A DNA stretch of 64,000 nucleotides from Monosiga brevicollis MX1 (lineage: Eukaryota > Opisthokonta > Choanoflagellata > Craspedida > Salpingoecidae): NCBI RefSeq assembly GCF_000002865.3, contig NW_001865045.1, forward strand, positions 206,685 to 270,684, given 5' to 3'. How positions within the stretch are numbered: position 1 is the stretch's first letter; every line of letters begins with the position of its first letter. Under the pieces are notes generated by a model. That model saw only the letters and a program-made list of their open reading frames with translations. It was not told the DNA's origin and made no database searches. Made by a program: the position numbers and the translations under genes. This document shows, in pieces, positions 19,816 to 58,283 of the stretch.

Positions 19816-22800
19816 ATGGCGACCAAGGGCTACGAAAACAAGCGCTCAGAGGTCAACGAGCTGCGCACCCTCTTGCGCAACCCGGAGGTCCAGCGCGACC
19901 CCCAGCGCTATTGCGAGGTGGTGGAAAAGGTCACGCTGTACCAAACCCTGGGCCTCGATGTCTCCTCCCTCTTCAGTGACATGGTTTTGGTGCGTTCTTG
20001 GCGCCTGATGATAAACCACCTCCCTGTAACCTTGTGCCTCGCGCACCATGAGGAGCGAAGGAACACATTGCGCCTTTTCAAGCTCATCGTTCTGGCACGG
20101 CACACCCATATTGGCTCTGCACTTGCTAGGCGTGCGCTACGCGCAGTCTGGTCCAAAAAAAGCTCGTGTACCTATATCTCTGCAACTATGCCCAATCCAA
20201 TTCGGATCTGACCCTCCTCACAATCAACACGCTGCAAAAGGATTGCCGTGACACCAACCCCATGATTCGGGGCCTCGCTCTGCGCTCCATGTGTGGTCTG
20301 CGGTGCGTTGTCGCCATTCATTTGCTCCGTACTTTGGTGGATCCTGGTGTTTCCCATGGCCACGACAGCGCCTTTTGCGATTGCTTTTGCTCGCGCCCGC
20401 CCATGGGCTATCACACCATCATTTTGGCATTTGAGCCCAGCGCCATGATTTGCGTCTTTGCCAATCGCAGCCGACTCATTTGCACTGCCTTGCTTGCCCC
20501 GCATTGCTCGCCCGCATTGCTCGTAGTGTGCCCAATCTGGTCGAGTACGTGTTGGTGCCTCTGAAAGACGGTTTGGCCGACAAAAGCCCCTACGTGCGCC
20601 AAACAGCCGTCATGGGTTGCGTCAAACTCTTTTACCTCGATCAGTCTTATGTCACGGACAACAATCTGGCCGAGAGCCTCCACGCCATGATCCATGACCG
20701 CGACGCACAAGTCGTCGCCAACGCCGTCATTGCCCTCGAGGAGGTGCGGCGGCGTCTTGGGCGGCGTTGATTCCTGATCCCTACTTTGAACCAGCTCTCA
20801 GCGCTGCCAAACAAACATAATACTGCCATCGACCTTTCTTGCCTCATCGTCTCTGTTTTGGCTTCGGTCACTGCATCTCTTCTGCCGTGCTTTCTTCAGG
20901 TCTTGGCTGCGCGTGGTGGCATCATGCTCACGCAGGAGGTTGCCTACATGCTGTTCAACCGACTGCGCGAGTTTACGGAATGGAAGCAATGTGCCGTCAT
21001 GAACGTTCTTCTCCGCTACAAGCCCGCTTCGGACGATGAGGTCTTTAGCATCCTGGTGCGTTACCGGCACGCCATCCGTTTGCCAATGTGCCTGTCAATG
21101 CATGCGGCACTCACCATCTCGGCACACCCACGGGTCTTCATGGCATCGATGTGCCTTACCCGTGTCTGGATCCTCCTGGCAGAACATTGTCGATGAACGA
21201 CTTAAGCACAGCAACACGGGTGTTGTACTTGGGGCTGCTCGCCTATTTCTGCACTTTACCGCAGAAATGGAGGACATTCAGGAAGACATTTACGAGCGTC
21301 TCAAGGTCTGTTCATAGCCCTACTGTCGTGCCCCATCCGCGTGCTTTCCATTCTCGAGACGTCTTGAGCAAAGGCTACCGCCAACTCCCCATTGCTCTGC
21401 TCTACCACAGCACTTGTCAATTTGCTCAGGCTGACCAGCGTTTTGACTGTGCTTGCTCTGTGCGCCACCGACTAGACACCCCTCATCACGCTCATGTCAT
21501 CAGCCCCTGCGGAAGTATCTTTCAGTGTTCTTCACCACCTGCACACGCTGGTCAAGAAGCGCCCCGATGTGCTCGGTTAGATTGGATACGTTTGTAACGT
21601 ATGGGATTGTGGGGTGTGTCACCCTATTGTTTGCTGCAGTTAAAGCCTGGGCTGGCCCTCACGGTCGCGGATGTGTGCGCGGCTTTGTATTTTTGCAGCC
21701 AAGGATTTCAAAGCCTTTTTCTGTCGTTTCTCCGACCCAGCCTATGTCAAGACCAAAAAGCTGGATGTGCTCGTGGATGTGGCCATGGAAAGCAACTTTG
21801 AGCCTATTGTTGAGGAGATGACCGCCTATGTGACAGACATTGATGTGGAGCGCGCCCGCCACGCCGTGCGTTGCGTGGGGCGCATTGCTGTTAAAGTGCC
21901 CGCGGCCGCCGAACACTGCACCACCGTGGTATGCCCTTACAAGTCAAGTGTGGCGCTTGCGCACCGACTGGATGCACCCTTATTGCACCTCTCTGCTTCA
22001 GAATGCTCACGTTTTCTTTTTTTGTTGTGGGTGTGGGTGTAGCTGCTCGCGTTCCTCGAACTGAACAGCGAATACGTCACGGCCGAGACCGTGATTGTGA
22101 TGCGTGACTACTTGCGCCACTCGCCGTCCGACGCCGTGGACCTGCTGCCCCAGCTCTTTGAGCTCATTTCACCCGATCTCTTCGATGATGAGTCGGATGC
22201 TCGTGCAGCTTTTGCATGGCTTCTGGGGGAATTTGGCGAACTTATTGAAGACGCCCCATATCTTCTTGAGGCTATGGTCGATGACGTCGAGGCTGAAGAG
22301 ACCGCTGCTGTTCGCCTGCAATTGCTCAACTCAACGCTTAAACTCTTCTTCAAACGGCCTCCCGAGTGCCAGAAAATGCTCGGCCGTCTCTTGGAGACGC
22401 TGACCTCGGATGAGATTCAGCAAGACGTCCACGATCGCGCGCTTCTGTACTATCGACTCTTGCGTAGTAATCCTGACGAGGCTCGGCGCGTCATCAACGC
22501 CACCTTGCCGCCCATCCTTGATCATGACCGCTCAGCCATGACCGATATGGAACTGCGCGAGTTTAACACGCTAAGCGTTATCTATGGCCAACCCAGCATC
22601 AACTTCACCGTTCAACAGCCGCCCTACTGTACTTTTGGTACCATTGACCCCACCGCCGCTCTCAAGCAGGCTCAGCAAGCCAATGATGAGGATGAGGACG
22701 AGGAAGAGGAAGCCGATGACACGCCTTCCTTCACGCAAAGGTGATCCCTCCCTCCACTGCCTTGTGTCCACGTGCGAATTCTCGCTTCCGCACCGGTGCC

Positions 22801-23687: not shown

Positions 23688-24371
23688 TTAATCCGAAGCA
23701 CAAGCCGAGCAGCGCATCAAACCATTTTCATTACAGGCGGTGCAACGAAGGGCCACCATATCGCCAAAGTGCGCCGTCATCGAGCGCTTGTCGCCGCCGC
23801 ACCAGGTGCACGGCACAAAGCGGCGATCGCCACATTCCCCACAAACGCCATGCTGCCCCAATTCTGTGCGCGGAACCGGTGCTAGCAAGGCAGCTAGCTT
23901 GCCCGTTTCATGCATACGCTCAACCGTCGAAGCATCACCGAGCAAATCACCATTGAAGAAGACAACCGGTGGTTGCACGCCTGGCGCCCGCTCCGAAAGT
24001 TCTTCCTGTATGTCTTTGCTCAGCGCCATGTCTCGCTCTTCAAAGGGCACGCGATAGCCTTGAAATAGACTGCGCATTTGACGACATGCTTGGCCTACGG
24101 CGCGCACTACTGAGAAAGAGGACGTATACAAGACGATTTTGCCGCCGAGCTCCTCTCCCACACGGGCTTCAAGATCGCGCAGAAGGTCTGCTTTGGAGAT
24201 TGTCGTCTTGAGGGAGCGCTCAGCTCTCTGCAGGAGATTGCTCTTGGTCTTGCGCACCAGTCCAGCAGTGGCTGGGATTGATGATCGCCGTCGCCGCTCT
24301 GATCGTGATAAAGGGCGCTCCAACTCCGATGGGGTCGTGGCTGGAGGCGCTGCGTATGAGAGAGCTAGTTG
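23688..24371 (-). CDS. GRXCR-type glutaredoxin domain exon, probably the last exon of the STAND gene upstream
   Basis: About 228 residues. An Arg/Ser-rich leader is followed by a glutaredoxin-like domain (KIVLYTSSFSVVRAVGQACR, PFEERDMALSKDIQEELSER, PVVFFNGDLLGD) and a C-terminal cysteine cluster with four CxxC pairs (CGECGDRRFVPCTWC, then CTACNENGLMRCSAC). This is the layout of GRXCR1/2 and of plant CxxC-glutaredoxins, which lack the redox CPYC active site; here the site reads TSSF. No in-frame ATG precedes the domain: the frame opens after a TGA at about 24428 and its first methionine is inside the domain. Acceptors at 24374-24372 and about 24425 are both phase 0. They fit a GTATGT donor (from 24653) in the preceding minus-strand gene, so fusion is likely. 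A separate gene with an unseen first exon is the alternative. Confidence 0.75.
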   Translation of the reverse strand, partial: QLALSYAAPPATTPSELERPLSRSERRRRSSIPATAGLVRKTKSNLLQRAERSLKTTISKADLLRDLEARVGEELGGKIVLYTSSFSVVRAVGQACRQMRSLFQGYRVPFEERDMALSKDIQEELSERAPGVQPPVVFFNGDLLGDASTVERMHETGKLAALLAPVPRTELGQHGVCGECGDRRFVPCTWCGGDKRSMTAHFGDMVALRCTACNENGLMRCSACASD

Positions 24372-24536
24372 CTGTACTCGTCCCACCAAAGGTAAAGAGT
24401 CACGCCGGCTGGAACGGCGCTGTCACATAGGTGCGAATACATGGAGTATGAGGGTCAAGAAGCTGGGGTTGAGCAGATCCGTTGGGCAAAGAGAAACCGA
24501 CAGTGCTCCTATGCCAATTCTTTCACATTTAACTTT

Positions 24537-24559
24537 TTTTTTTTTTTTTTTTTTTTTTT
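24537..24559. repeat. Poly-T tract
   Basis: T homopolymer in the stretch between the glutaredoxin exon and the last WD40-gene exon; a probable intron if the two are fused. Confidence 0.95.
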
Positions 24560-24653
24560 GTGGAGGGGCTGTAATTATTTATTTTTGACCCTGACTGTCT
24601 GATCTCATTTGTTTTAGGCACAACCACATCGCTTCCCGAGTCGTTCAACATAC

Positions 24654-27600
24654 CCGAGTGGGACTGTCCAAGCGTGCTGCAGGCGTTTGTGCTGGCTCTT
24701 GAAATGCCTCAAGGCCCGCTGCCGCATTGTACACGGCGAGGAGGACGGCTTCTTCAAAACGCCGGAATGGCCGGTCCGGCAAGAAGCTGAACGTTTCGGC
24801 ACATGCCAGAATAGGCTTGCCAAGGTCGGCAGCATCTACCAACTCTGCTACCTCCTATGGGCAATTGAATCACAAGTGCGGTACCCAGTCCGTATCAACG
24901 TAAACGTGAGATGAGACTGTGCTCAACAAATAAAAGCCTTTCCAGCAGAAAGGCCTGGCAAAGGTGGAGAAGACAACAACACAATGTCGCGAAAGTCGGC
25001 CCAACCTTGTAAATCAAGTCCCAAACCACCCAGCGTTGATCACCGTCGTCAAAGATGACATGACCCTCGTTTCCATTGGTCTGCCCAGAGAGACTGGCGT
25101 CCCATGCTGACTCAAACAGCGGATGGCGAGCCACAACGCGCGTCCCTTCAGCGCTTGCCTGGCCCTCGGCGGGTGTCAAGGGGTGGGAGGTGCGCAGTAC
25201 ATCTTTGCTTGGCAACCAGGCTAGCTTTCCCTGATCTTTGCCATGTGTATAGCGAACAAAAGCCAGAGGTCCGTCGGCCAGGCCCGCATGTTGCGGGGCC
25301 AGCTGGCCTCGAAATTGTTCCAGCATGTCGCGTGCAATGTCTTCCACCGTCATCGTACCCGGGACCAAAGCGATGATCGGCAACAACGAGAAAGCCGGTT
25401 GCTCCGGCGCCAGCGGTGAGGCCATGTCCTGCATACGAGCCGTACCTTGGCTAAAGTCTGCAATCATTGGCGCCGGCAACGGGATGGGCTGACGCGTCCA
25501 CGGACATACCACTGTGGCCTCGTAGTGGCCGGCAAGCTCGTTCCAGCGCTGTGCAGCCGTGCACACCAGCTTCTCATGCGGTGGCAGCAGACGGTGGATG
25601 GCTCCGGCATCATCCCCAGCCACCAGCTCTCCACCAGGACCGCGTAGCAATGCACCAATTGAGGCACCGATAAACAGACGGGCAACCGGCTCCTGCCGAT
25701 GAAAATGCCAAATTGTGACCGTTTGATCGTCACCAGCGCAAGCCAGATGACGACCGTCGCCGCAAAACACGGCGGCATATACGCGATCCGTATGCTGCAA
25801 AGTACCACGAAGCGAGAACGTGTGCAAATCCCACAACACCACGAGTCCGTCGTGAAAAGCAACGGCCAGGGTTGTATCATCAAGGCTGATGTCTATGCCG
25901 TAAATGGTCGAGTTGGGAACGCCTGCGGGTGCGCTGACCTCCCCCAGCAGTTGAAGAGGCTCGCATTGATAAATTTCCACCTTGCCTTTTGTGGAGATGG
26001 CCAGGCGCCGAGCGCTCTGGCTCACTCGCATTTGCTGACCGTTGACGTTGCCGGCCGTGGCGACCTGTTCATCGTCAAAGGCATCCACAATATGCAGGCC
26101 ATTGCCGCTGAACGCCAGGTGACGGCCATCCGGAAAGGCAGCCAAGCTACTCGTCACAACTCGCGATGATACTGCCGCCTGAGCCAGCCCCTCTGCGAGC
26201 CGCGTATAAACATCTGTGGCACGGTCGTGGGTGAAAACGGCCAATTGTCCTCTGGCGTCGGCAATGACCAGGCGTCCGTCGGCCAGCTCGACGGGGTTAT
26301 AGCCCAAGGCCACAAAGGGCGAGCCGTCGGCATTGCATAATCGACTGTGCAGCGAGAGTGCGGGGTAGTGCCAGAGGTAAACGCCGCGGGGGCCGAATTG
26401 GCCCGTGGTGAGGAGTAAGCGGGTTCCTTGCAGCCAGCAGGTACCCATGATGCCTTGGCCAAAGCCCTCTGGACCAGATCGGCCCTGAGTCGGGTGAGTT
26501 TTGGCCGCAGCTAGATCCCAAACGAGGGCACGTTTATCCCAAATGCCGCCGCCAGTCACCAGCCACTCGGCACTGAGATCCAGCCCAAAAATGGTCCAAG
26601 AGTGGCCATAGAGCTGCGCTTGGACTTCGCCAGAGCCAATGTCCAAGACGGAAATGCGCTTGTCGGCACCTACGGTAACGACAGTTGTCTCTCGCACAGC
26701 CAAATTAGTGATGGCACCTGTATGGGGCGTGGTCAAGTTGGGAGCGACCGGTAAGAGCTGGGTCCGGCTCTTCAAAGACATTCGACGCAAATCGCAGCCA
26801 TCCACGACATATAACACTTGAGACGACGCATGCCAGGCCAGCAGACGCAAGCCCAGGAGACGTTCACGCGCATCAAGACGATCCGGGGGTAGATGAGCCA
26901 GATCCGCATGGGCAATCTGCGTCAAAGCCTGGCCATCCCATTGAAGGGCTCGCACAGCTGTTGGTTGTTCCAGCAAATGACCATAGGAATATACAAAGAC
27001 CACGTTGGATGTGTGATCCACTGCCAAACCCAGCGGCGTGCCAACCTGAGGTACAGCCATACGCACGTACACATCTTGATGAAGACTGGGCGTTGTGTTG
27101 AAACAAAGCCGAACAGGCCAAATCAATGCCATTTAAACATGGCGTTGAGTCGAACTTACATCCGTAAAACGGGCAAGCTCACGCCGAGCCTGCAGGTCCC
27201 AGACCTGCACACAACCCGGCGTGACACGCGGGGTTGTATTGGCAAGAGCAGCCTGTGTCTCTGAGCAGGACACTACGGCAAGATTGTCACCTAGGAGGGC
27301 TACATCCTGACACGCGCTAAGTATCACAGCACCAAATACCACAAGCAGGCACATGTGAGCAGGAAGCCTTGCATTGCGCCATTACAACGACACTGGGAAA
27401 AAAAAAAAAAAAAGATGGCTGCCCTCTAATTGGATGGCATCGGCATACCCAGCAGCACAATCCAGGCGGTGAAGGATGGATAAATCTGCTGCTGCGACGA
27501 GGAGAACTTGACCATCATCAGAGGCAGCGAGCAAACGCGGAGCTGCTCCGGCTGGCTCGGACGGGGCAGGGGGAAGCACGGTCATGTTGTTGATAGCAGC

Positions 27601-30600
27601 ACTGGCAGCATCGCGTACGGCCTCCACACGACCCGTGGCCATGTTCCATCGTCGAAGCTGACCATCACGTGCACCCGTAATGAGTGCACCATGAGCAAGC
27701 ACGCACGCGTAAATAGGGGCTTTGTGGCCCGCCAGCTGCATGGAGCAGGCTGGCAATGCTTGAGGCTTATTCAACCATTGCAGCTGAGGGCCATCCTCAC
27801 GTGCTAAAAGCTGTGCTGCTTGCGGCTGTAGGTGGCACGAGTCTGGGGCATTGAACGCAGCACAGAGAAGGGCGCTTGGCTATCAACAAGCCGGAGAGAA
27901 AAGCGGCAGCGTGGGGACACAACGGTGCAAGCCGATACGGCCAAGAATGAAGTGAGCACAGCGCTTTGTCAGAGGAAAGCTTCCACAGGGCTGTGAAGAT
28001 GATCAAGCAAACAAACGCAGCCCGTGCATGCAAATCCGCATATATACGTACGTCGAAGCGCAGGAGGGGCAAAGTGTTGAGCAAGAGTTGCCAAGTTTCT
28101 TGAAGAGCAGCACGTTGTTGGTGCTGCAGGCATGCATGGATGTCGTCCAAAAGCTCATGCACCATGCCGTGCACGCACTTGGCGTCGAGAAACTCAAGCT
28201 GACAAAGAAGTGCAGCACAGTCATCATGTCGGCCTGCACGGGTCAGGTGGTACGGAAGTTGTGCGAGCTTTCGCACGTTGACCAGTGCATCGTGCTCTGC
28301 CTTGCCAGCGGGAAAAAAGAGTGGCTGCTCGCGTAACCCGTCAGCCAGCAGGTCATGAACCCGTGCCAATACAAGCGCATCGATTTGTGTCACATAGCGC
28401 TGCTGTACAGCCTGGCGAATGTAGTCATGAAGAAAGTTGAGGCGCCCTGCAAGAGGGCGCAGGGATGAGGATACGGTGGCACAATTGGAAGCATTGCACC
28501 AAGCCGGTGGGACGATGGGTACAGAGAAAACGGGAGGTTGACAAGGAAAAGAGATTGAAAATTGGCCCACTCACCGCCACGATCGATGAGCAGGTGACGA
28601 TTGACTTGCAGGGCCGCTGTGATCAGGAGCGGTGCTGGCTTGTGCGGAGAGCTGCGATGCCAAGCTTGCAGCAGATGATACACTTCAATTTCCGGCACAC
28701 CTTCCCGACTGACAAAAATGGCGCGCATGAGGGTTGGCACCAGCTCACGGTGCTCAGCAAAGGAATCATCGATTCGAGCCAACACCATATCCAGCAGCTC
28801 CGGCACAGCTGGCGCTGAAAGCAGTTGATCCAGCTTGTCATCAAGGCGGTAAAAATGACCAAAGGCAATCAGCTCTTCCAAAAGCAGTAGAAGATGAAGG
28901 GGATTACCACAAGCGGGGCTGGCCACAAGGCGCGCCAGTTGGTGTGGCGAGAGCTTTTTGCCGACGCGACCCAAAATTGTCTCTGCGATCGCAGTCTTAT
29001 TCGGCGCATCGAGTGGTTGGGTTTGAAGGGCCACGTAGTGTCGATGTTTGAGCTCGTCTTCGCAAGGGCCCGGCAGTGTGGACACGATGAGTTGCATGTT
29101 TGGGGGAAGGTCCACAGGCAGCCACGCAAGGCTGTGCACTGTGGCGCCTCCCAGCCAGGGCAACTCGTCATTATCCAACTGGTTGAGGGCATCAATGACC
29201 ACAAGTAGGCGGCCTTGGCCTTGGTCCTGGCAAGACTTGGCGGCCGAGCGCAAGAGTTCAGGCAACTGTTCAACCAGCGCTTCGGTGCTGGCACTGACGA
29301 GAAGCTGCGCGCGTTCAGGAGATGCGCATGCAGTGCACAGCCGCATCAACAGGTTGTGCAGGGCGGTGCTCTTGCCATCACAGCCACAAAAGTGGACAAA
29401 GACGCGGTCGCGGGGGTGGCGGGTTTCATGTGCCACGAGCCAGTTGGCTAGGAGTGCTGATTTACCACTGCCCGAGGGTCCGAGGACTGCCACGGGATTC
29501 TTGGCTGCTTTCACGAGATCTTGAAGATTCTGCCGCAAGGTATCGGCACCCAGAAAGAGAGAGCGTCGGGTGTTGGCAAAGTTAATGTGACTATTGGCTT
29601 CGTAGGCATCTACTGCGTGCGCGTCCGCGGCGGGGACGGGTAGGACGTCCGTGAGGAGGGCCTCAAGGAGGTGATACATCTGCTCGGCGGCTGCTTCGGG
29701 GACTGTATAGCTTTGCGTGTGGATCTGCAAGCTTGGTTGGGCGAGAGCGAGGTGCTTGACGTCCGTCTCAAGCTGTTCTCTAAGACGAGCGGACTCGGGA
29801 TCTGGGTTGACATAAGCATGTGCATCGTCGTGGCCAACCCGTTCGGTGGCGAGCCGGGCATCATAGGCTGGGTCGCGGAAGAAGAACATGGCGGGACGAC
29901 GGTCTGGGGCATTGAGGCAGCCATGACGAAACTCCAACTCGGTGATGGAGCGGGACGCCCATTGCATGACAAAAGGGTAATTGATGGCTGCGAGTTTGAG
30001 ATTGCCATCAAGCCACTCCGTGGCGGGGTTGCCTTCGATGCGATGAGAGCCGTAGCGTCGACCATAGAGACCGACAAAGACATCGGCACGATCAATTTCG
30101 CGGAGACAAATGTCGAGGGTGCGCTGCTGGCTTGCGTCCTCAGCCGTAATGCCCCAACGCAAGTCGGTGCAGGCCAGAGCCACGCCCGCAGCCTGGCATT
30201 GATGCTGAAGGAGTGGGAGGTAGCGCTCAACAAAGGCGCGGCGCTCGGTTTCCAGGCCGGCAAAGGGCGAAGAAAGAAAGACGTTGAGCGTGCGTTCACG
30301 CCGCAGCTTGCCAGCTAGGTGGCTGCGCATGGCTTTGGATCCAAGCTGGGTCATGACATGATCACCAGGTGAGCTCGTGGGAGCCGTGGCATGGGGCGTG
30401 TTCTGGGACTGGGACTGAGCAAGGGGGCCCGCCTGGTTGATGGGCGCAAAGTGGCTGACTGAAGTCTGCGCGGGGTCGGAGCTGGACCGAAGAACCTGCT
30501 CCGTGGCTCGGGTGGTAGCGGCTTCATATTCAGTTTGGACGCTTTGTGGGATCATGAGTCCAATGGTGGCATACAAGGGCAAGCGCTCGGGCCTATTCAA

Positions 30601-30861
30601 AACCTGAGCCAGCTCTCCTACAAACTGAGACACGTTGCGGCTTTGTACAAACACCTGAATGCACCGACTGATCACGAACACGCCGACAGGTGATGTGCAC
30701 AAATGCGGGTAGTGAGGGAGAGCGGTGAGCCGAGCGCGGTGTGCACAGTTGCTGGGTGACACGCAAGACGGGGTGCCGCACTTAATTTCAGCTGCCTCCA
30801 ACGGCGCAAGCAGCGTGCTCGTCTGTGCACGGAACAGCGCAAACTTGTCTCCCTGCTCCAT
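24654..30861 (-). CDS. STAND ATPase: harmonin-N-like, DUF4062, NACHT, WD40 (NWD1/TEP1-like)
   Basis: Very large signal-transduction ATPase, about 1800 residues before the probable glutaredoxin exon. Exons: 30861-30763, 30654-28575, 28446-28052, 27879-27449, 27316-27160, 27045-25006 and 24854-24654. The phase closes across all of them. The N-terminus (about 1-85) resembles the harmonin-N helical domain: VSQFVGELAQVLNRPERLPL, then TIGLMIPQSVQTEY. DUF4062 follows (LNVFLSSPFAGLETERRAFV, then DLRWGIT). The NACHT module has a P-loop near residue 425 (LGPSGSGKSALLANWL) and Walker B near 518 (LLVVIDALNQLD). A helical bridge reads AQLPYHLTRAGRHDDCAALL, and WD repeats (QVWDLQARRELARF, VVLWDLHTFSLRGTL, VTIWHFHRQEP) run to about residue 1735. 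The start is the first in-frame ATG. It is head to head with a second STAND gene. Confidence 0.8.
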
Positions 30862-31404
30862 GCCGTCGTTGTACAGCGCTGTCACTTGTTGTGGTCGCCC
30901 AGGCAGCCACCACCACCACCATCAGTACCATCAGCATCAGCACCAATGTGAACCGGCACCATCAGCACCATCAGCACCAGCACCAGCACCTTCAGCACCA
31001 GCATCTTCAGTAGCAAATGAGGCAACCATGTTTTTGTCAGCTTTTTAACAACAACAACAACAACGATGACCGCTCGATGTCAGATAAAGCTGGATCTTGA
31101 CAGCATGTGTGTGCGTGTGTGTGTGCGTGTGTGTGTGTGTGTGTGTGTTTGATCGCGAATTTCTGATCAGTGGGTTTGTTGAAAGTGGCCGAGAGGGGGG
31201 CGGGAGGGGGGCAGGAGGAGGGGATCTTGGGCAGAGGGGGGATCGGGGGCAAGTGGCATGATCGGATCGGATCTGTTCCCAAGGCTATTTGGCAAAGGTG
31301 GATTGGGTTCCTATAGGTGTATCTTATCACCGTGCGTGTTGCTCGCTCTTTGGCAGGCATTACCCCGCCCCACCCTCCAGCAACAACAACAACAAAAAAA
31401 GGAC
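30862..31404. promoter_or_regulatory. Divergent promoter between two STAND genes
   Basis: A 543 bp interval separating the two head-to-head NACHT genes. It carries CAC/CAG-rich simple sequence at about 30908-31010, (CAA)n at about 31049-31062, a (GT)n tract at about 31102-31149 and a G-rich stretch at 31190-31250. A shared promoter would allow joint expression; no specific element can be named. Confidence 0.5.
31102..31149. repeat. (GT)n microsatellite
   Basis: Interrupted GT/GC-GT run in the shared promoter of the two STAND genes. Confidence 0.9.
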
Positions 31405-34400
31405 ATGAGTGGGGCAACTAGCGCTGAGGCGCTGGGAGCCAACGGGCTAGAGGCTGCGCCTTACAGCGGCTGGCTCATGGTGAAGTTCAAGGGCCGCTTT
31501 TCTAAAAAACAAAAGTTTTTTCTCAAGTCATCGGCCCGAAGCATCGAGGCCTTTGTGCGCGATAGTGCTCAAGGCGGCGAGCTGGTTCTTGTTAGCGCGC
31601 TGGTGGCCCCGACAGCTGGCTTTCGGGCGCAACGCAAGGGGCGCAGCGCCGACGGGCCGTCGCGGCTCGTGGTCCGGGGCCGGAATGCTCAATGGCGCAT
31701 TACAGGCGATCATGCTGAGCTTGATGCCCTTCATGCCAGCCTTCGCGCTACCGATGCCCCGCTGGAGGCCGAGATGAATGCCACAGATGGAGATTCCCCG
31801 ATCGCTATTGCCGGTTTGTCACAACCCATACCGATTATGTGATTATGTGTCTGCATCTTGGCTTGGTTGGCTTTTGATGCACGCCTTGTGCCTGCGCTTG
31901 CAAACGAATCGGCTCGACCCTTGCTCTTGCCCTCACCGCTACGTTTTGTTGGCAACCCCGCCTTGGTCTCTTGGTCTCGGCATGAACGCTACACGTGCAG
32001 GAGAGGTGAACACGTCGCCACAAGAAGCTTTGATAGTGCCGCTTCCTTCCGCCGGCCCTGGTACAGGTACTGAAGCCGAAGAAGTGACGCCAGAGCAAAT
32101 TACTACTTTGCTGCATGGTGGCCTTGATCATGGCCTGCGTGCACCACAAACCGCACTCGCCCTATTCATCTCCTCCACCTTCACTGGTGCGTTGCCGCCT
32201 TGCGCAGCGGCCGTGCAACAGTGGTGATCCTGTGCTAGGTTAAGCCAGCTTTATGTGTGTCAGTTGCTTTTGTTGATTCATTTTTGATGGACGCCCGGTG
32301 GATAGATACCGAGCATGAGCGGAATGGCATGATCGGCCAGCTCCCGGCGCTCAAGGCGCTAGCCCGCAGTCTGAGCCTGGACCTTGAATTCTCCGAGATG
32401 CGATGGGGCGTTACCCCCATCCTTTCTGCCCATCACCAGACTACCGCACTCTGTCTTCAGGAGCTGCGTCGCTGTCAAGCTAAATCTCCCTCACTCAATT
32501 TTGTGGTGCGTATGAGTGTGCGGGCGTGTGTTCAGGAGCGCACACGGGGTCTGCTCAAATAGGGTCACGCATTCACGCCTCACACTCAACTCACACTGCT
32601 GTGTAGAGCTTGTTGGGAGATAAGTACGGCTTTCGCCCCTTTCCCAATCTCATTGCTGCCTCCGACTTTGAGCGGCTGGTTCCTCTTGTGCGCTCGAGTA
32701 CAACCCAGGAATTGCTGCGCGCATGGTTTCGAGAAGATGCCAACGCAGTCCCTGCCATGATGGTGCTATTGCCCATTCATGAGCGCCTGCCTGAGTATCT
32801 TGGCAGTCAAGACGCCGCAGCCCGACGCGCTGCGTCCAACGCCTGGTGGGCTCAGTTTGAAGAGATGCAGGGTGCACTGCGTCAGGCTGCCCTTGATCTT
32901 CAAACTCAGGATGAAACTTTCAACGCCCGCCCCTTTCTCATCTCCGGTATTCATGTCGCCCGCGCGGGGCGTGTTTTTGGGTTGCTTATTCAGTCAAGCT
33001 TTATGCTGTTGCCTGTGCATTCCTGGCTTGACTCACCCTGGTTATCCGGGTACCATCCTCCGTGTGTTTACCTCCCCCCTCGCAGTCACGGAAGATGAGG
33101 TGCAGACGCAGCTTGAGGAAACAGCCGATGCTGGGCAATGCAGCGTCTGGTATCGCCGTTGCTTCTCTGATCTGGCGCAGGTGCCTCCTTCAGATCGCTG
33201 CCTCAAGCGCTATGTTGACATGACTGCCGATGGTCGCGACCACGATGCCCAGACCTTGTTGGCTGGGTTGCACCAGCGCATGATGGCAGCGCTGCCCCAT
33301 ATTCATACTTATCCGCTCACTTACCACCCGGATGAAGGTGTGCATCCTGCTCAGCCAGCCCACCAGCAATACCTGGAGCAGCTCTGCACCGACTTTGAAC
33401 AGCTTGTCACCGGTGCTCTGCACCAACTCAACAAGTCCATTGCCCCACACCAGCGAGACCCTCTCTTGTTAGAAGTGGCAGCCCATTTGCAATTTGCCGC
33501 ACGTCGTGGCGTCAACCTGGTGGGCCGTGACACTGAACTTCAGAGTATCAAGGCCTTCCTGACTGCGCCCAGTCACGGACCCCTCGTGGTGGTCGGTGAC
33601 TCTGGTTCGGGGAAAACTTCAGTCATGGCCAATGCTGTAGCCTCGGCAGCCGTGGAGCGGGAGAGCGGTACAATGGTCATTGCTCGGTTCGTGGGCGTAA
33701 CACCTGCGTCGCGCACCGCACAGAGCCTCATGCACTCGATCTGCGAACAAATTATGAGGACGGGCCGATGGGCACCCAAGGGTGAAGGCAACGCCCCCGG
33801 TGAGCTGCCAACCCGATACTCTGACCTGGTGCCGCTCTTTTCAGAGGCCTTGGAAAGTTCCTCAGCCGAAACCCCTCTCATTGTGGCTATTGATTCTCTC
33901 GACCAGCTCTCAGAGAGCTCAAACGGTCGCAGCCTGGCCTGGCTACCCATTGTCTTGCCTCCCCACACCCACTTGATTGTGTCTACGCTCCCACAGGCGC
34001 AGTACAAGTGTCTCCCCAGCCTGGAAAGTGCAGCAGCACGGGCACGTGCCTCCAACACAGAATTTGAGCTGCAGAAGCTCACCGTCCTACCACTCAACGC
34101 CACGCAATGTCTGGAGGCCTGCATCATCTGGCTTCGCATGGAGCAACGATGCATCTCCGAGGCTCAGCGAGCTCGCTTGCAAGCTGCTTTTGAACAACTC
34201 TCTACGCCCTTGTATATGCGGGTGGCATTGCAGCTGGCACGCCATTGGTTCAGTTACACCGAGGTGGCCGCCTTGCCCGCGACAGCACGCGATGCCATCA
34301 ACGTACTCTTTGAGGAGTTTGAAAAGGAGCAGGGTGAAATTGTTGTTCGGCGGTTGGTGGGTTACTTTACTGCCACTGTGGGTGGTGTGAGCAGTGGTGA

Positions 34401-37400
34401 AATGCTGGATGTCTTGAGTTGCGATGATGAAGTGCTCAACCATGTCTTTGAGTGGTGGCTCCCACCCCGCCGCCTGTTTCCTCCATTGATTTGGACTCGC
34501 TTCCGCACACTTTTTGCTCCGTTTTTGGTACGTGCTTGCGCCCACCTCATACATCAGTCCTAATACACCGAGACCTTTCTTGCAATCCCCTTTTCATGCC
34601 ATCCGGGACTATCTTCCTAAGCTGTTGCCGTTTTTTTTTCTTTTCCTTTACTTCTCGCCCCCTTGCTACCCTGGACAATACGCAGACCAGCAGCACGGTT
34701 GATGGTGCGGAAATGATCTCGTGGCATCATCGCCAATTTTGGGAGGCAGCCGAGGCACGATACCTTGCCACAGCTGAAGATCGCCGACTGTGCCATGCTG
34801 CGTGGGCCGACTACTTTTGTGGTCACTGGCATGGTCGTCCCAAGCCTTTTCATTATACCCAAGCACAGCTCAGTCGTTTTGAAGAGACCATCGTGGAGAC
34901 CGAGGGCTCGGATCGGTTCGATGCGTATAAGCAAGGCGTAGCTGCCGAACAGTTTCGTGATGTCCTTGATCAACCCATCTTCTGGCCTCAAAATGGCACA
35001 CCTAATCGTCGTCGAGCTACTCAACAGGCCCATCATCTGCTGGCCGCTGGTCGATTCGAGGAAGTTGCTCGTGACATTCTGCTCAATTTTGAAGCCCTAC
35101 AGGCCAAAGTCCAGGCTCAGTCCGTCTGGGACGTCTTGCGCGAGGCTGAACTGGTACTGGCCGAGTCACTTGACGCTGGACTGAAACGCAGCGTGCAGCT
35201 CTTGCTCGAGTTCTTGACGCTCAAGTCCGTGGACCTCAATTCGTCGCCACGCACATTGCCCGGGTTGCTTCACAATCACATTGGTTTGAAGCAGTTGCAA
35301 GAGCGCGGCGAAACGGTCATGGAGATGGCTCGCTTGCTGCAAGCGGCTGCCACCTATGCTCGCGAGCATCAGCTGCTACTGCCCAATTATGCGGCGGGAA
35401 CACTTGTGGGCGGACCGCTGCATCAGGTCTTCCCACTTCCCTTCTCCAAACGCCAGTCCGTCCCTGTTACTTCAATCCGCCTATCCAGCTCGCGCGACAC
35501 ACTGTACGCAAGTTACAACAACAAGTTTTCCACCTTCGATCTAGCTTCTGGAGCACTTGTGGGCGAACTTGAGCTCTTCCGGCATGCTCGATGCCAATTG
35601 TGCGAGCCACAGCAGCGAGTCATCATGTCACACCACAACATTCATGTTGAGGGGCAGGGTTACCAGCGACTTGAATCTGGGCGCATCGTTTGCCTCGAGC
35701 TAGCCACTGGGCGCGAGTGCTGGGCCCGTGAGTTGGCACAGTTTCACGAACTCGTTGGTGTCAACGAGCAGGCTGGGCAAGTCATCTTTCAGGACGGCCA
35801 GCGCATCGTGTTTGTGCAGATTGAAGATGCCCAGGAAATAGTCTCCCAAGATCTGGATGAGGAGCAAAAGCTGACTGCTGTGGCTTGCAACGATGACGGC
35901 ACGTTCTTGAGCATGGCTCTTGAAACTCCGGTGGCTGATGGCGATGACGCCCTTCCCTCGACCGCCGTGTCGGTACTGCAGCTGCAGCAGCACAGCGTAA
36001 TTCTTAACCTCGTACTGACAGACTCAGTCAAGTCATTGGCCTTTGCAGACCAGGATCGAATTTTGTGCATAGCTACCTCTGCCGGCTGGCGTGCGGTGGA
36101 GGTAGCGAGCGGAGCTACTGTGTCGTCATCTTCGACGGGCGCGCTCAAGGCGCTTGTGGGCTCGCAGTCTCATTTGTGTGGTCTGCTACGCAATAACAAG
36201 GCCTGCTTAGCCGACGTTCGCACTGGTCAGGAAGTGCGTCAATTTCAGTGCGGTATGATGCCAGTGACAGCCATGAACCTTTTGAGTGACCCTTTCCTTT
36301 GTACGACCGCGGGGTATGATGGCCAGGTGCGCTTTTGGCTGAATCGCGACGAGCTTGCGCTTGATCCTACACTACACCACAACGAGATGCCACGCAAACT
36401 GTTCCACACGCAACACCATCTCATTTCATGGGCCAGTGAGCCATGCATCAAAGCGTGGTCCCGCCCTGGGCTGGCACACTATACTGATCTCAAGCTCGCA
36501 GAAGCCCCCGCCGATGCATGCGCATTGCCCAACGATCAAGTCTTGGTTGCGATTCGGGACAATTTGTTAATTTGGGATTTGCCAACTAAGAACTGTGTCT
36601 ACCAGCGCGCGATGCCCCGCCAAGTGGCGTCACTGTCCGCGCAGATCAGGCCAGCTGAAGCTGCCGGGGCCGAGGGTCCCGAAGGACAAGTTATTGTCAT
36701 TGTGTCTTTTCGCCAGGGCGAAGGCGGAGCGCAAGTCTGGGACCTAGCTGCCGAAATGGCTGTGCAAGAGCATTTGCAAAAGGTAAACCCCTTACAGCTG
36801 AAGCAAGCCAACGCCGACGAAGTGGCTGCACTGCCATTGCCCGAAACAGAAAACGGACGGCCTGCTTTGGCGCCTGCCTTGGTGGAGCGAGCGACACAAG
36901 ATCCATGGTTGCGACATGCGTGCTTTGCCAAGGATCGTTTGAACATCAGTCAGTGGTGCACGGCACACTTTCCGCATCTTCTGGCCGACCTTGACACAAG
37001 CCGAGCGGAGGTAGCCGTCAACAATCGGCATGCTGTCATGGCCGACAGAAGCGGCCACATCGTGGTACATGGCTGGGACCTCGAGGCTCCTGTGACTGGA
37101 ACCCACCCCTTCACAAATGCCCATGAAACTTACAATTCACTTCGGGTGCAGGTGAACGATCGCGTCGTTGTGCTGACGTACATCAATGCAGTGCTGATCT
37201 ACGACCTGTATTCGTTAGCCCTCTTGCGGGAGACAAAAACCGAAGGCCCCTACATCGTGGGCGTCGACGCCTGTGGTCCCGATCTATTTGTCTTGCAATT
37301 CCTGGGAGGTATCGTCTCTGTGATGAATGAGGAGGGCGAAATCCTCCTGACCGAGGCATCTCCATCGGGCCTTCCCTTTGATTTTCAGATAGCCGGACCC

Positions 37401-37658
37401 TTCCTGGTGGGCCGCCAGCTTCGTCGGGCGGCAGTTTTTGAGCGCTCATCGACAGGACAATTTCGCGAGGTGGCTGATTTCTTGGCAGGGGGCTGGTTGC
37501 CTGTCTTTGAGGCCATGTGGGTGGAGGCGGAGGCTGAGAAGAACGACGAGCAAGTCGCTAAATTGGAGGTGTTCACAATTACGGTGGAGGGTCAAGTTAT
37601 CCCGCTGACGCTATTGGCGCCCGCCAATGAGAATGCGACCGCTGTTTCGATGGCTTGA
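31405..37658 (+). CDS. STAND ATPase: PH-like domain, DUF4062, NACHT, beta-propeller (NWD-like)
   Basis: Second NWD/TEP1-type ATPase, 1849 residues. Exons: 31405-31813, 32001-32186, 32306-32505, 32607-32946, 33086-34527 and 34686-37658, with consistent phase. Residues about 18-125 look like a PH domain (YSGWLMVKFKGRFSKKQKFF, then WRITGDHAELDALHASL). DUF4062 starts LALFISSTFT, continues DTEHERNGMIGQLPALKAL and EMRWGVTP. NACHT: P-loop VVGDSGSGKTSVMANAV near residue 548 and Walker B PLIVAIDSLDQLS near 648, then LPPHTHLIVSTLPQ. A winged-helix/helical segment (ISWHHRQFWEAAEARYL) leads to about 750 residues of degenerate WD-like propeller blades. Compared with its minus-strand partner it has a PH domain in place of the harmonin-like one and no glutaredoxin domain. 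The shared core suggests an old duplication. Confidence 0.82.
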
Positions 37659-39324: not shown

Positions 39325-41193
39325 GCTCTTTTTGCGATTCGTCAATCTCCAACTCACGTTTCCATGTTGGTGGAGGATAGGTAGTGCAATGCGTGAATGA
39401 CAAGAATAGCACGGCACCTCAGGGTGTGCTGACCGTACCCGCGGGCCAGATGGGCAGCGTGCGGTTGCTCGCATCACGTGCCACCAGCGTTGATGACGAT
39501 CGCGCCGCGGCCAACGATAACGTACTGCAGCGCGCAGCGACAGCACTGCAAGCGGCCGAGCAGCAAGACCAAGACGCCTTCTATGCTGCTCATGTGGCAG
39601 CTTGTGCATCGCTGTACAGCAGTCGTATCGAGGTGGATGGCAACACGACGCTGGCTGCCATCGTCAACGCGTCCCTGTATGGCTTGATGACGGCCCTTCG
39701 TGGGGAAGTGACGTATAGCACCAGTCCTGGCGGGCTGGCCACCAACACATACCATGGGTGGGTGATATCGAGGTCTTGGATGTATTGCGTCCAAGCCGAA
39801 TCGCGTGCAGTGGCGCTGGGTTCCTAATCAATCGCCTTCTCGGGCGCTGTTTGTGTGTCATAGGCACACCTTCTGGGACGTTGAGACGTGGATGTGGCCA
39901 ACGCTGAATCTTTTCTATCCAGACATTGCGCTGAGCGTGTTGACCTATCGCAGCAACCGCTTGGGCGCCGCGGAGTCTATTGCTCGCTCACATCACATGG
40001 ATGGGGCCATGTTTCCGTGGGAATCGGCTTTTACGGGACAGGAGACGGATCCTGCACCAGGTACGCTGAATGAGGAGCACATTCAAGGAGACATTGCCTT
40101 TGCATTCCGACAATACTTTCAAGCCACGGGCGATGGCGCGTGGCTCAATTCCACGGGGTATGACGTGCTCGCCAAGGTGGCCGCCTTTTGGGCATCCAAG
40201 GCGCAGCGCAACTCTGATGGCTCGTACAGCATCCCCGATATCATGGGTCCGGTAAGCAGAGGATGTGGATGGGTGCAGGTGCAAGAAAAAAAAGAGGTGA
40301 AGATGGAGGGCGCGGCGCACGATCTCAAGCCACCTCATCCTCTTTCTGCGGGTTGTGTGCCCTCTCCACGGCAGGATGAGTATCATGGTGGTGTGACGGA
40401 CAGTGTCTACTGCAACGTCATTGCCCAATTGAGCTTGCAGACGGCCCATGACTGGGCGGCCCGAGTGGGTCGTGCGCCCAACGCGACCTTGCAGACAATT
40501 GCGCAAAACCTCCGCGTCTTGTTCAACGCGAGCACCGGCATCCACCCTGAATATCTGGGCTACGATGGCTCCACGGTGAAACAGGCGGATACCATCTTGA
40601 TTGGCTATCCGCTGGGCTATAACATGACCGCGGCTGTACGGGCAGCAGACCTGAACTATTACCGCGAGCGGACCGATCCCCATGGGCCGGCCATGACCTG
40701 GGGCATGTTTTCAATCGGCTACCGGGATGTGGGGCTGGCAGCAGAGGCGGACGATTTCTTCCAACAATCGTTCGAGGGGAATCTGGTGGGGCCCTTTCTT
40801 CGATGGGCCGAGGTTAAGGGAGGTGGGGGTGCCTTCAACTTTATCACGGGTGCGGGCGGGTTTCTGCAGACAGTGTGGGCTGGCTACGGTGGTGCCCGTT
40901 TGACCGACGATGTACTGGAGCTACGGGCGCCAAGCCCGCTGCCCGGCAGCACGGGCTTGCTGTTGCGCGGCCTTGCCTATCAGGGCGGCCGTTTCACAGT
41001 CGAGGCCCGGCAAAGCCCGGCGGGTTGGACCCTGACGCTAGCACACGGTGGAGATGCCTCGTCGTTTGAGTTGGCCGTGGTTGCCGCCGCTGGCGTGATT
41101 CCAACGCCCGACCAATGGCAGCCCCTACCCGCTGGCCAGCCTCAAGCCTTTCAGATTGGCAGTGTAGTGCTTGTTCGCTCCAAGTCAGCGTGA
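38071..41193 (+). CDS. Secreted GH65-like glucosidase, PGGHG/ATHL1-type
   Basis: Resembles protein-glucosylgalactosylhydroxylysine glucosidase (ATHL1), which removes glucose from the collagen disaccharide; acid trehalases are relatives. Nine exons: 38071-38130, 38219-38276, 38388-38623, 38759-38800, 38944-39075, 39188-39265, 39381-39757, 39864-40251 and 40375-41193. They give 729 residues (human about 737). Exon 1 encodes a signal peptide (TVILLFAALSQAQ). Conserved blocks: VGNGYVAYF, GVFNGQ, FWDVETWMWPTLNLFYPDI (candidate catalytic Asp), FPWESAFTGQE, DEYHGGVTDSVYCNV (candidate catalytic Glu), KQADTILIGYPL, GPAMTWGMFSIGY and FNFITGAGGFLQ. Several N-glycosylation sequons fit a secreted or lumenal protein. 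The small exons between 38388 and 39265 are the least certain. The true substrate could be another alpha-glucoside. Confidence 0.82.
39290..39320. repeat. Poly-T tract in intron
   Basis: A 31 bp T homopolymer within intron 6 of the glucosidase gene. Confidence 0.95.
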
Positions 41194-49400: not shown

Positions 49401-52284
49401 CGCACACGCAGGTTTTCCATCAAACCAAGGTACTGTCAACGCGTTTCAATCATGATAAACAAACAGAGACGGCGGGGAGAAGTGAGCGGAGAATTTGCGC
49501 GGGTAGCTGCTCGTGGCTGTCAGCAGGTGAAAAAAATTAGGACGAAAACGTCCTTGGGGCGAGGTCGCACCTTGACTTGGTGATGCACGACTTCAGTGTC
49601 AAACACGCCTGCGCGCTTGTTATGATTGGGCTTGATGCAGCGCACGTAGGAAGGGGTCTTGGTGCTCAGGGTCTCAATGAGGCTGTTGAGAGACTGCTTG
49701 AACTGGGTGCCTGCTGTCAAGGGACGGCGCTTGGCCTCAAGCTCCTCACGCGGAAAGCAAGCTAAGCATAACAAAGGGATTAACACCGTCCACCAAGGTT
49801 GAGTCAGACAAAACTGAGCTGAAAATGCGGAGTTTGGAGGGCAATGGATAGTGAGGCCGGACCTTGCAGAATGGAGCTCGTGGATCGAGACATGGCATCC
49901 TTGAGATCGCGGAAAAGCTGGTCGTTGTTCTTGTCAAGGAAACCAGTGACAGTGTAGACCACATCGCCTAGCGGGCACGCACAATTGTGTGTATGTCAAG
50001 TTGCATTTGTGTGAGAATGGGCTTGCAGTCAGTTGCCCTGAGAGCTGGGGAGCAAAGCTCTTGGGTGGGTACCGAGGGCATACCGGCATAATGGCGAATC
50101 AAAAAGTCTTGGTACTTCATGTTCTTGCGCTGCTCCTTATCCGCGCTCTTGTGGGAGAGAAAGTGCTGATGATGCTTGAGTTGGTTATCCAGACGCTCCA
50201 GAAATGTCATATCAGAAACCTCGCCAGGGCGCAGACACTCCTCATCCAAGACGGCAATGATGCCCTTGTGGCGCTCCTCGACCATGTCGCAAATGATTTT
50301 ATTGTTGAAGTAGTCAATCTTTTCCCACTCAATGCCTTCGTTGCGGTATTCCTCCTGCTCCGACTTGAGTGTGAGCTCGATGAAGAGCTGCTGCAGCTTT
50401 TCATTGCAGTAATTGATGCAAAACTGCTCAAAGCTGTTGGTCTTCATGATCTCAAATCCGTAAATGTCGAGGAGGCCCATGACAGTCTGGCGGCCGTCAT
50501 GATTATACTCGAGGGAGCGGTTGATGCGCTCAACTAGCCACGAGAACATACGGTCGTACATGGCCTTGGCCAAGGCATCACAGGCGTACTGGGCCTGCTC
50601 CTGGGAGAGGTCACCGCGAATTTCCTGGCCACGAGCCACGACCGTCTTGTGAACGAAACATTGGGACAAGACATTGAGCTCAACACCGAGAAGCTTGGCA
50701 AGCTTATGCACGGGCTCCATATCCTGAATGCGCGATTCATCACGCGTGATGGCCTCAAACTTGAGTTCGCCCATGTGAACGATGGCACCAATGATGTTGT
50801 ACAACTCCTGTCAATGGCGAGCGCAAGGCGTGCGGTCGGAGTGTGCACACACAGTGAGGTCAGACCGGATTTCTGGCCGATGAAAAAAACAAAAAACAAA
50901 GAAAAAAGGGCTTGCGACGAGGTGGGTCAGGTAGGGAGGGCATGTGCTCACGTCGATTTCAGCTCGGTCAAAGGCAAGCTCGTCAAAGGCACGTTCCAAG
51001 TCTTGGTAGTCTCGCAGGTCGTCAATGGTGGCAACTTTTTCGGCATCTCCCTACCAGGCGAGGAATACACACGCATGCGAGCCTATCCGTGAGCCACTTT
51101 ACTCCAAAGTGCTGCACCACATGGCTCGAACCGAGGTAACATTGCGATTGCCGAAGCAGGAAGTATGGGCAATGTGTGGCGAGCCTACTTGGTTGGTGTA
51201 GCGGTACTTGCTGGGTTGCGGGTCCAGCTGGAGACGCTGAAGCAAAGCGGTGTTGCCCGAGGCCATGAGCATGTAGAAAATGTGAAAGTTGCGCTCGCCA
51301 GGCATCTGATAGACAACGCGACACTTCTCCAAGAGATAGTTGACAATCTATTAAGGCGGAGAAGGAAAGGAGGATAGGATGACACTGAGCACTAGCAGGG
51401 CTTGAAAAAGAGGGACGTGGCTCCATGCAGCATCCCACATACCTTGCCCGAGAGAGGCTCGCCCTTGAAGTCAAAGTTGCAGGCCATGTACTTGCCAAAG
51501 CGGGAACTGTTGTCGTTACGGATGGTTTTGGCGTTACCAAACGACTCCAGAATCGGGTCTAGATGAACACAGGCCACGGGTCACAAATGGCACACGTATG
51601 GGCAGGGGCAGGATCAGCAAGAAGATACAGCGACACAATACAAACAGCGGCGCAACAGGGGCTGCTGAAAAAGAATGGACAAGGGGGCTGCCTCGTACTG
51701 GATTGTAGGAGGCGGTCACGGATGTTGCCAGCCTTGCCCGTGTTCGTGGACGAAAGGGCTAAAAACTGCAAGATTTTCTTTGAGGCCTCGGTTTTACCGG
51801 CGCCCGACTCGCCGGAGATGAGGATGACCTGGTCAAGGAGCTCATCTCGCATCGAGCGGTATGCTTGGTCGGCAACGGCGAAAATGTGCGGGGGCAGTTC
51901 GTAGAGATTGACATTTTGGTACATTTCAATGTGATCCTTTGAGTAGATATCGAGCTGATGGTACGGGTTGACACTGACACACACGTTGCCAATATATCTG
52001 TGGAGCAGTGCGGCATGGCACAGCGCGGCCAGGTGAGTGGCTAGGGGAATGGGGGTTCGAGTTGGACGACGGGTTCGCTCAGGTGGGGTTAGGGTTAGCG
52101 TCAGAGCAAGCATGACGGGTGAGGGGGCGTACGTGTAGATGATGTCCTTTTGGAAGCGCTGCTTGAGGTTGTTCATGAAGGCGTCCTCATTCCGGAAATT
52201 CTCGAGGAGCACAAAGTCCTGCACACCAACATTGTCGTTTTCGCAGTGCGTCTCGCGCAGCGCGCGACCAGATGGACGCGGCAT
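46477..52284 (-). CDS. Class I myosin heavy chain
   Basis: Actin motor that links membranes to the cytoskeleton. Eighteen exons: 52284-52133, 51997-51699, 51558-51443, 51347-51189, 51050-50952, 50807-50084, 49967-49863, 49761-49571, 49432-49353, 49272-49141, 48984-48857, 48647-48563, 48445-48392, 48260-48155, 48033-47860, 47717-47583, 47448-47293 and 47112-46477. They sum to 1176 residues. Motor motifs in order: [14 protein letters not shown]-loop [12 protein letters not shown], switch [11 protein letters not shown], switch [22 protein letters not shown], and actin-binding [12 protein letters not shown]. The converter is followed by about three IQ-like motifs ([20 protein letters not shown] among them). 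The basic TH1 lipid-binding tail includes [14 protein letters not shown] and [17 protein letters not shown], then an RGRG-rich tail ([20 protein letters not shown]). No SH3 domain is seen, so it is a short-tailed type. An AAG|GTCCGT donor near 46540 could add a different last exon. Confidence 0.92.
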
Positions 52285-53052
52285 GGTTGGTCCTGCAACG
52301 CATCATACCCAGGGCAGATGACAGAGTCAGCGTATGCATATGTGAATGTGATACCACTGAAGGGTTGAAGGAAGATCGCGCGGGAGGCAGTCCGCAGTTA
52401 GCCCACCGAAAGCCTGAGAAGCACACCTGTTGGTGCCAGATGTTGTGTTTGGCTCGTCAAGAGAGCTGTACCTGGTGCGGGATTTCGGGAACCACGGGCG
52501 GGCGACCAAACAAGGGCACGCTTGACTGCACAATCGCCCAGAGGCTCTCTGTGCGCCGAAAGTCAAGCCCAGGGAAGAAATCTGCAAGTCGATGCGGGTT
52601 GGGAGGACGAGCAAGCGAGCCAGCAGTAAGCACGGGGTATCGCTGAGAATCGAGCATGAGAGAGATCGGGCTGAAAGAAATCCCCATGCCTACGAGCCAG
52701 GCTCGCTCAAGCTCCAGAAATCGACCGGAGCGTCTGATTCAAGGGCCTGCTCCGACACGGTCCTGCTTCGCCCGTCTCCGTGTCCCACTCAACCCCGTGC
52801 ACGATGGGCACCTCCATCAAACGCATTACTGCGGGGCCTCCCCCGAGCACTTGGGCTTGCGCACCATTGCGATCAGCGACAGCTATCGTGTCTTACCGTT
52901 GTTCTGCTCTGAGGGACCGAAGTAGAGCGTAGAGTCTAGTCGAGTCGAGAGAGTAGAGAGAGAGGAGAGAGAGAGAGAGGGCGGGGATGCCGGAGAGAGG
53001 GACAGTGGCGGCGGCAGTGCTGACCAACTGTAACTGCTGATAACGTTAACAA

Positions 53053-58239: not shown

Positions 58240-58242
58240 CTT

Positions 58243-58283
<41 letters not shown>

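Follow-up and report, generated by a model that had tools for sequence, protein, structure and literature searches.

In the 64,000-nucleotide window of Monosiga brevicollis MX1 analyzed here (contig NW_001865045.1, positions 206,685 to 270,684), two large multi-exon genes run apart from about 31 kb. Both encode proteins of the STAND type (signal transduction ATPases with numerous domains), with DUF4062, a NACHT-type NTPase and WD-type propellers; we call them gene A (reverse strand) and gene B (forward strand). We suggest that they are two STAND ATPases of separate descent placed head to head. The reading that we favor, and hold tentatively, is that A would be a signal-gated NADase and B an NWD1-type scaffold or regulator, the two being possibly co-expressed. 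An original prediction, made from the sequence alone, had taken positions 23,688 to 37,658 for a pair of nucleotide-binding leucine-rich repeat (NLR)-like STAND genes with the same core, different N-terminal effectors and a common 543 bp promoter.

Spliced models of both genes were built by hand with phase-matched GT-AG introns. They are consistent in frame and phase and free of internal stops (see the table), which bears out the divergent, head-to-head order. The 543 bp spacer is exact if A starts at its simplest start codon (Met 30861) and B at the ATG at 31405, but the first exon of A is uncertain, and with an alternative upstream exon (Met 31029) the spacer shrinks to 375 bp. Results of a sigma-70 type promoter scan were discounted, as the host is eukaryotic.

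The N-terminus of A had been described as harmonin-like, and this holds: it matches the harmonin structure 2kbq in PDB (E = 4.6e-6) and the Pfam family PF21219 (E = 4.3e-5), even though the latter score, 23.9 bits, lies under the cut-off of 27. In the genome searched (39.5 Mb, 57 contigs) it is the sole match to this domain at E<=0.1, the search being done exon by exon, so that others may have been missed. The fusion of a harmonin homology domain with a STAND core appears to be a new architecture. As far as the accessible part of the paper goes, a survey of the domain in UniProtKB (PMC8048344) reported no significant new architecture and did not assign 79 of its 2939 hits to known families, so A may be among these unplaced hits. 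A full-text search of the literature, judged by titles and the beginnings of abstracts, found no harmonin-NACHT protein described.

Gene B is a different case. Its N-terminal exon has no Pfam match, the N-terminal stretch has nothing meaningful among PDB sequences (the best hit, E = 0.74, is an unrelated enzyme), and the predicted model of the PH-like stretch (AlphaFold, single sequence) gives six strands followed by helices at low confidence, with a predicted local distance difference test (pLDDT) score of 49.8; Foldseek found no match for this model at E<=0.001. On the other hand, the corresponding position in a paralogue from contig C26 is taken by a PH domain (PF00169, 40.2 bits, over the cut-off, with two exons joined in phase; 13.8 bits for the second exon alone), although BLAST does not align the two stretches. 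The PH-like label is therefore plausible and a fair guess, suggested by the paralogue and not by any match of B itself. Further along, the spliced B protein reaches 57.3 bits for AAA_16, over the cut-off, and 25.6 bits for NACHT, just under the cut-off of 26.7, and the winged helix that follows (HTH_NWD1, PF25469, 48.5 bits, cut-off 27) places B among the NWD1-like proteins.

Walker A motifs in both proteins, together with the Pfam domains, agree with the predicted STAND architecture, and the N-termini do differ. The NLR label does not survive in its strict sense: among the Pfam matches listed for A and B there is no leucine-rich repeat (LRR), Death, CARD or PYD domain, and WD40-type propellers are found instead. 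Several choanoflagellates have been reported to carry NACHT with LRR, but a Death or CARD domain in none of those studied, in the portion consulted of Richter et al. (PMC6040629). STING and cGAS-like pathways have also been reported from choanoflagellates (PMC8592570, PMC6040629, PMC12424679), with neither NLR nor NACHT mentioned in the accessible parts of PMC8592570 and PMC12424679.

The case for an enzymatic role comes from DUF4062. In the part available of a bioRxiv preprint (Osinski et al. 2026, PMC13174449), this domain is described as a TIR-like NADase in the bacterial antiphage system Swarozyc (KpSwz) and in human TEP1, where activity works through E1008 and is reduced by R908A and R976A; purified human NWD1, NWD2 and NPHP3 are reported not to hydrolyse NAD+. 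We took the TEP1 numbering from the one single offset of chain 11gz_A that gives R, R, R and E at 908, 954, 976 and 1008. In the alignment, A has Ala, Arg, Arg and Glu at these positions, and B has Thr, Gln, Lys and Glu. Between the GDKYG and SVTEDEV motifs there are 104 residues in B against 33 in A. Because of these residues and the longer insert in B, A is a good but imperfect candidate for an NADase and B a poorer one, a difference that fits an asymmetry of executor and regulator without proving it. An earlier idea that B had lost the catalytic Glu was dropped when splicing showed SVTEDEV. We infer that the effector is likely DUF4062 itself, and not the harmonin or PH-like extension to which the original prediction had given this role.

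Prokaryotic relatives of the core are numerous. An earlier scan with A alone as query gave no relatives among 41 stretches; an alignment-based scan matched 409 of 422, of which the best 80 were kept, corresponding to 79 loci. All 79 proteins match A at E<=1e-3, and 52 of them are collinear with its core over more than 600 amino acids (aa) at 25-33% identity (best E = 9.9e-86). In 46 of the 58 complete proteins the domain is followed by a Walker A motif. In six relatives inspected by Pfam, we found TPR in L067, L084 and L105, WD40 in L066 and L129 (DUF4062 is not among the matches listed for these two), and no assigned C-terminal family in L132. The catalytic Glu1008 is kept in 79 of 79, R908 in 62 and R954 in only 7; RWG and RYG motifs formed part of the search patterns, whereas Glu1008, R908 and Thr906 did not. 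The collinearity, joined to the reported NADase of bacterial defence, makes the predicted link with antiphage defence more concrete.

The two cores are homologous, but the sequence comparisons place them in different subfamilies. A and B share 29% identity over 241 aa. The nearest paralogue of the A core lies on contig C47 (47% in DUF4062) and shows no detectable harmonin domain in the same exon-by-exon search, while the B core matches paralogues on C56 (34% over 650 aa), C26, C55 and C35; C48, C40 and other contigs carry additional matches of NACHT or NWD type. A groups with C47 in the NACHT tree built from eight rows of this genome (99/99) and in the DUF4062 tree with the 79 prokaryotic rows (100/100), where B groups with C56 (99/89) and then with C55 (97/88); the latter tree has few columns and long branches. 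With 22 of 67 bacterial segments included, the NACHT tree has a 100/100 split, with B, C56, C26 and C55 on one side and the bacteria, A and C47 on the other. Raw NACHT scores of A have a median of 327 (142-438) with the 67 bacterial segments, and are 232 with C47 and 169 with B; those of B have a median of 187 (72-274) with the bacteria and reach 335 with C56. Each partner is thus nearer to others than to its neighbor, the 67 segments having been chosen by similarity to A, which favors A. The claim of a same DUF4062-NACHT-WD core is therefore right at the level of domains and too strong at the level of descent, and the opposite possibility, of cores unrelated in phylogeny, is half true: they are homologous and, in the trees, not mutual nearest relatives.

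An inverted duplication of one gene, with the different N-termini gained later, would explain the equal domain order and near-equal length of the products (1832 and 1849 aa). We consider it very improbable, since the trees set A and B apart and the sole inverted repeat of at least 30 bases is a T/A homopolymer match; a recent event of this kind is disfavored by the same trees and scan, and is unlikely because the cores fall in different subfamilies. A very old duplication is possible, as all six own-genome NACHTs constrained as one clade are not rejected (p-value of the approximately unbiased test, p-AU, 0.186). A and C47 constrained as a clade among the bacteria also pass (p-AU 0.194), and with both constraints passing, we do not claim a bacterial transfer of A.

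In the automatic alignment of the paralogues, C35, C55 and C26 seem to have their motif columns out of place, and at position 1008 we relied on A, B, C47, C56 and TEP1 only. By eye, the Glu is apparently kept in C35 (VTEDET) and C55 (VTSMEI), and not clearly in C26. Downstream of the C56 gene, the nearest paralogue of B, a TPR-like stretch was seen by eye (L056 7686-8363, forward strand), suggesting an NPHP3-like layout.

Under the favored reading, WD40 propellers and the helical region would keep the NACHT ATPase of A closed, as reasoned from APAF-1. A ligand would free it, and NACHT rings would then gather the DUF4062 domains, which would cleave NAD(P)+, and an added docking module could be provided by the harmonin homology domain. 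B, as an NWD1-type relative with a PH-like part and a modified DUF4062, would be less likely to act as an NADase than as a scaffold or regulator linked to a membrane, and the common 5' region could allow joint expression of both genes.

Several observations weigh against it. The predicted model of the A DUF4062 (AlphaFold, single sequence) has a pLDDT of 43 and leaves the fold unconfirmed. A lacks R908, the residue whose Ala mutant is less active in TEP1, and has Pro, as does C47, where all 79 prokaryotic relatives keep Thr906. B retains the catalytic Glu, so the asymmetry with A is a matter of degree. The 79 loci are the best matches to A out of 409, all of them match the B core as well at E<=1e-3, and the invariance of Arg976 and RWG among them is partly built in because the motifs belonged to the search patterns. 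The best NACHT tree with bacteria does not join A with C47. Finally, at 11 further family loci of this genome, retrieved as stretches of 9-10 kb, no second member was seen next to the first, which means that the family is not generally paired.

This lack of pairing elsewhere, together with the different subfamilies, would also be expected if A and B were neighbors by chance or old local history and acted independently, A as a TEP1/Swarozyc-like sensor and B as a scaffold of the NWD1 kind, for instance in assembling purine enzymes, with the short spacing reflecting a compact genome. The DUF4062 region of mouse Nwd1 has been reported to bind Paics and to regulate purinosomes (PMC7186558, consulted in part), which is in line with such a role. 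We regard this explanation as quite possible. Against it, the estimated chance that any two of 8-12 family loci are adjacent among 9,200 genes, which we take to be the gene number of this genome, is 0.6-1.5%, falling to roughly one quarter of this value if the pair must be divergent. The adjacency is modest evidence of meaning, and the weaker because the estimate does not allow for a pair that was singled out by eye as striking.

A functional pair in the manner of the plant proteins CHS3-CSA1 is less easily accepted. There B, with its PH-like part and altered DUF4062, would sense, and A, with the better-kept active site, would cleave NAD+ in a mixed oligomer. The head-to-head order, the TIR-like domain in both proteins and their residue asymmetry are consistent with this model, and the NADase sites of CHS3-CSA1 are reported to come from the executor CSA1 (PMC11298796, accessible part). 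Yet B keeps its Glu, and its NACHT score with A (169) is below the medians that either protein has with the bacterial segments. We find such a pair unlikely.

The DNA around the pair holds other genes. The interval from 23688 takes in a glutaredoxin open reading frame (ORF) with a GRXCR1/2 C-terminal domain. Its first Met is residue 116 of 244, inside or beside the glutaredoxin match (113-160), which means that an upstream exon is needed. It could be spliced onto A in phase 0, for a possible fusion of 2074 aa, or it may be a separate gene; an AATAAA lies at 24583, 3' of the unspliced stop of A. In the genome it alone exceeds the cut-off of PF23733, with three weaker partial matches. GRXCR-type proteins are usually separate. 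This ORF, with its Cys-rich C-terminus, adjoins the harmonin-domain gene A, and GRXCR-type glutaredoxins and harmonin families are both known from the hair-cell bundles of animals.

Table. Features of the window (window positions, unless a locus is named), with the C47 and C26 paralogues
Feature	Position	Strand	Details
Adaptin N-terminal ORF	22043-22744	+	
Glutaredoxin + GRXCR1/2 C-terminal domain ORF	23688..24422	-	just downstream of A; PF23733 48.8 bits, PF00462 30.3 bits
Gene A	24645..31029	-	8 exons, 1832 aa, 0 internal stops; harmonin homology domain - DUF4062 - NACHT - APAF1-like helical region - WD40
Gene A exons	31029-30954, 30878-30782, 30667-28575, 28446-28052, 27879-27449, 27316-27160, 27045-25006, 24854-24645	-	
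A, WD40 propeller region	25560..27750, limits approximate	-	PF00400 45 bits in larger exon, several propeller models
A, APAF1_C-like helical region	27799..28258	-	intron-spanning; PF17908 23.7 bits, cut-off 22.8
A, NACHT NTPase	29026..29496	-	Walker A GPSGSGKS; PF05729 38.4 and 39.2 bits, over cut-off
A, DUF4062, TIR-like	29851..30294	-	PF13271 50.5 bits, cut-off 24.7; TEP1 chain 11gz_A E 6.1e-16
A, Glu303	29934-29932	-	TEP1 E1008 position
A, Arg262	30057-30055	-	TEP1 R976 position
A, harmonin homology domain	30496..30861, limits approximate	-	one intron, 30781-30668
Common 5' region of A and B	30862..31404		from one simplest start codon to the other; microsatellites (GT)n and (AAC)n
Gene B	31405..37658	+	6 exons, 1849 aa, 0 internal stops; PH-like - DUF4062 (NWD-type insert) - NACHT/AAA_16 - HTH_NWD1 - WD-like propellers
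Gene B exons	31405-31813, 32001-32186, 32306-32505, 32607-32946, 33086-34527, 34686-37658	+	
B, PH-like domain	31462..31749	+	not statistically proven
B, DUF4062	32156..33155	+	intron-interrupted; PF13271 31.1 bits once spliced, cut-off 24.7; 11gz_A E 6.3e-9
B, Lys271	32622-32624	+	TEP1 R976 position
B, Glu383	33097-33099	+	TEP1 E1008 position
B, NACHT/AAA_16 NTPase, then NWD1-type winged helix	33517..34527	+	Walker A GDSGSGKT; winged helix from 34288, resuming past intron 34528-34685
B, WD-like propeller region	35457..37500, limits approximate	+	weak repeats; WDR36/Utp21 and WDR3 models, under cut-offs
Glycosyl hydrolase family 65 protein	39766-41193	+	just beyond gene B
Myosin head ORF	51559-52302	-	
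FG-GAP repeat ORF	56878-58293	-	
C47 paralogue of A	L055, about 6232 to 700	-	SSPF, Pro for Thr of SSTF motif
C26 paralogue of B	L057, 820-6351	-	PH-DUF4062-NACHT-WD40; mostly one open frame, 1843 codons; upstream exon holds PH start

Among known systems, human TEP1, the TIR-like NADase of the vault, resembles A in having DUF4062 beside NACHT, a helical domain and WD40, and A keeps its catalytic Glu, R954 and R976. A differs in its harmonin homology domain and in the lack of R908, and in the DUF4062 tree TEP1 stands apart from both A and C47, on a long branch. The idea of A as a TEP1 orthologue is not supported, given this position and the absence of TROVE nearby. The major vault protein is present in the genome (MVP_shoulder, E = 1.7e-51, C37:633562-633924). 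TROVE matches occur only at C13:112549 and C51:388k, not on the contigs of A or C47; no DUF4062 core was found in the C51 locus, and DUF4062-type matches lie on contigs other than C13. The exon-by-exon search found no TEP1 combining TROVE and DUF4062, and the vault here may have no canonical TEP1; our literature search on choanoflagellate TEP1 and vault found no publication.

The Swarozyc and other bacterial DUF4062 proteins share with A the DUF4062 and its conserved Glu, and the bacterial DUF4062-NACHT proteins its collinear core. A is set apart by its introns and its harmonin domain, and KpSwz is reported to have an HTH/winged auxiliary domain in place of NACHT-WD40 (PMC13174449, accessible part). 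B resembles NWD1/NWD2 in DUF4062, AAA_16/NACHT, HTH_NWD1 and WD-like repeats, a likeness established by domains with no animal NWD sequence compared, and differs in its PH-like N-terminus. APAF-1 shares with A the STAND NTPase, the APAF1_C-like helical domain and WD40, but has CARD where A has DUF4062.

Plant head-to-head TIR-NLR pairs are reported to act as sensor and executor (PMC11298796, in the part available). Like CHS3-CSA1, A and B are divergent genes with a TIR-type domain and a STAND NTPase, one partner having the better-kept active site; unlike it, they have WD-type propellers for LRR and DUF4062 for a canonical TIR, and an independent origin is presumed. It would be a non-plant counterpart of the paired TIR-NLRs if, in a single-celled and probably animal-related eukaryote, an NWD1-type partner controlled a bacterial-type DUF4062-NACHT core with a harmonin docking domain, an analogy that we consider quite doubtful. 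Should A prove to be an NADase, this lineage would have NAD+ depletion by TIR-like STANDs outside a TROVE-bearing TEP1, and the bacterial DUF4062 defence proteins would be linked to eukaryotic STANDs in a case open to testing.

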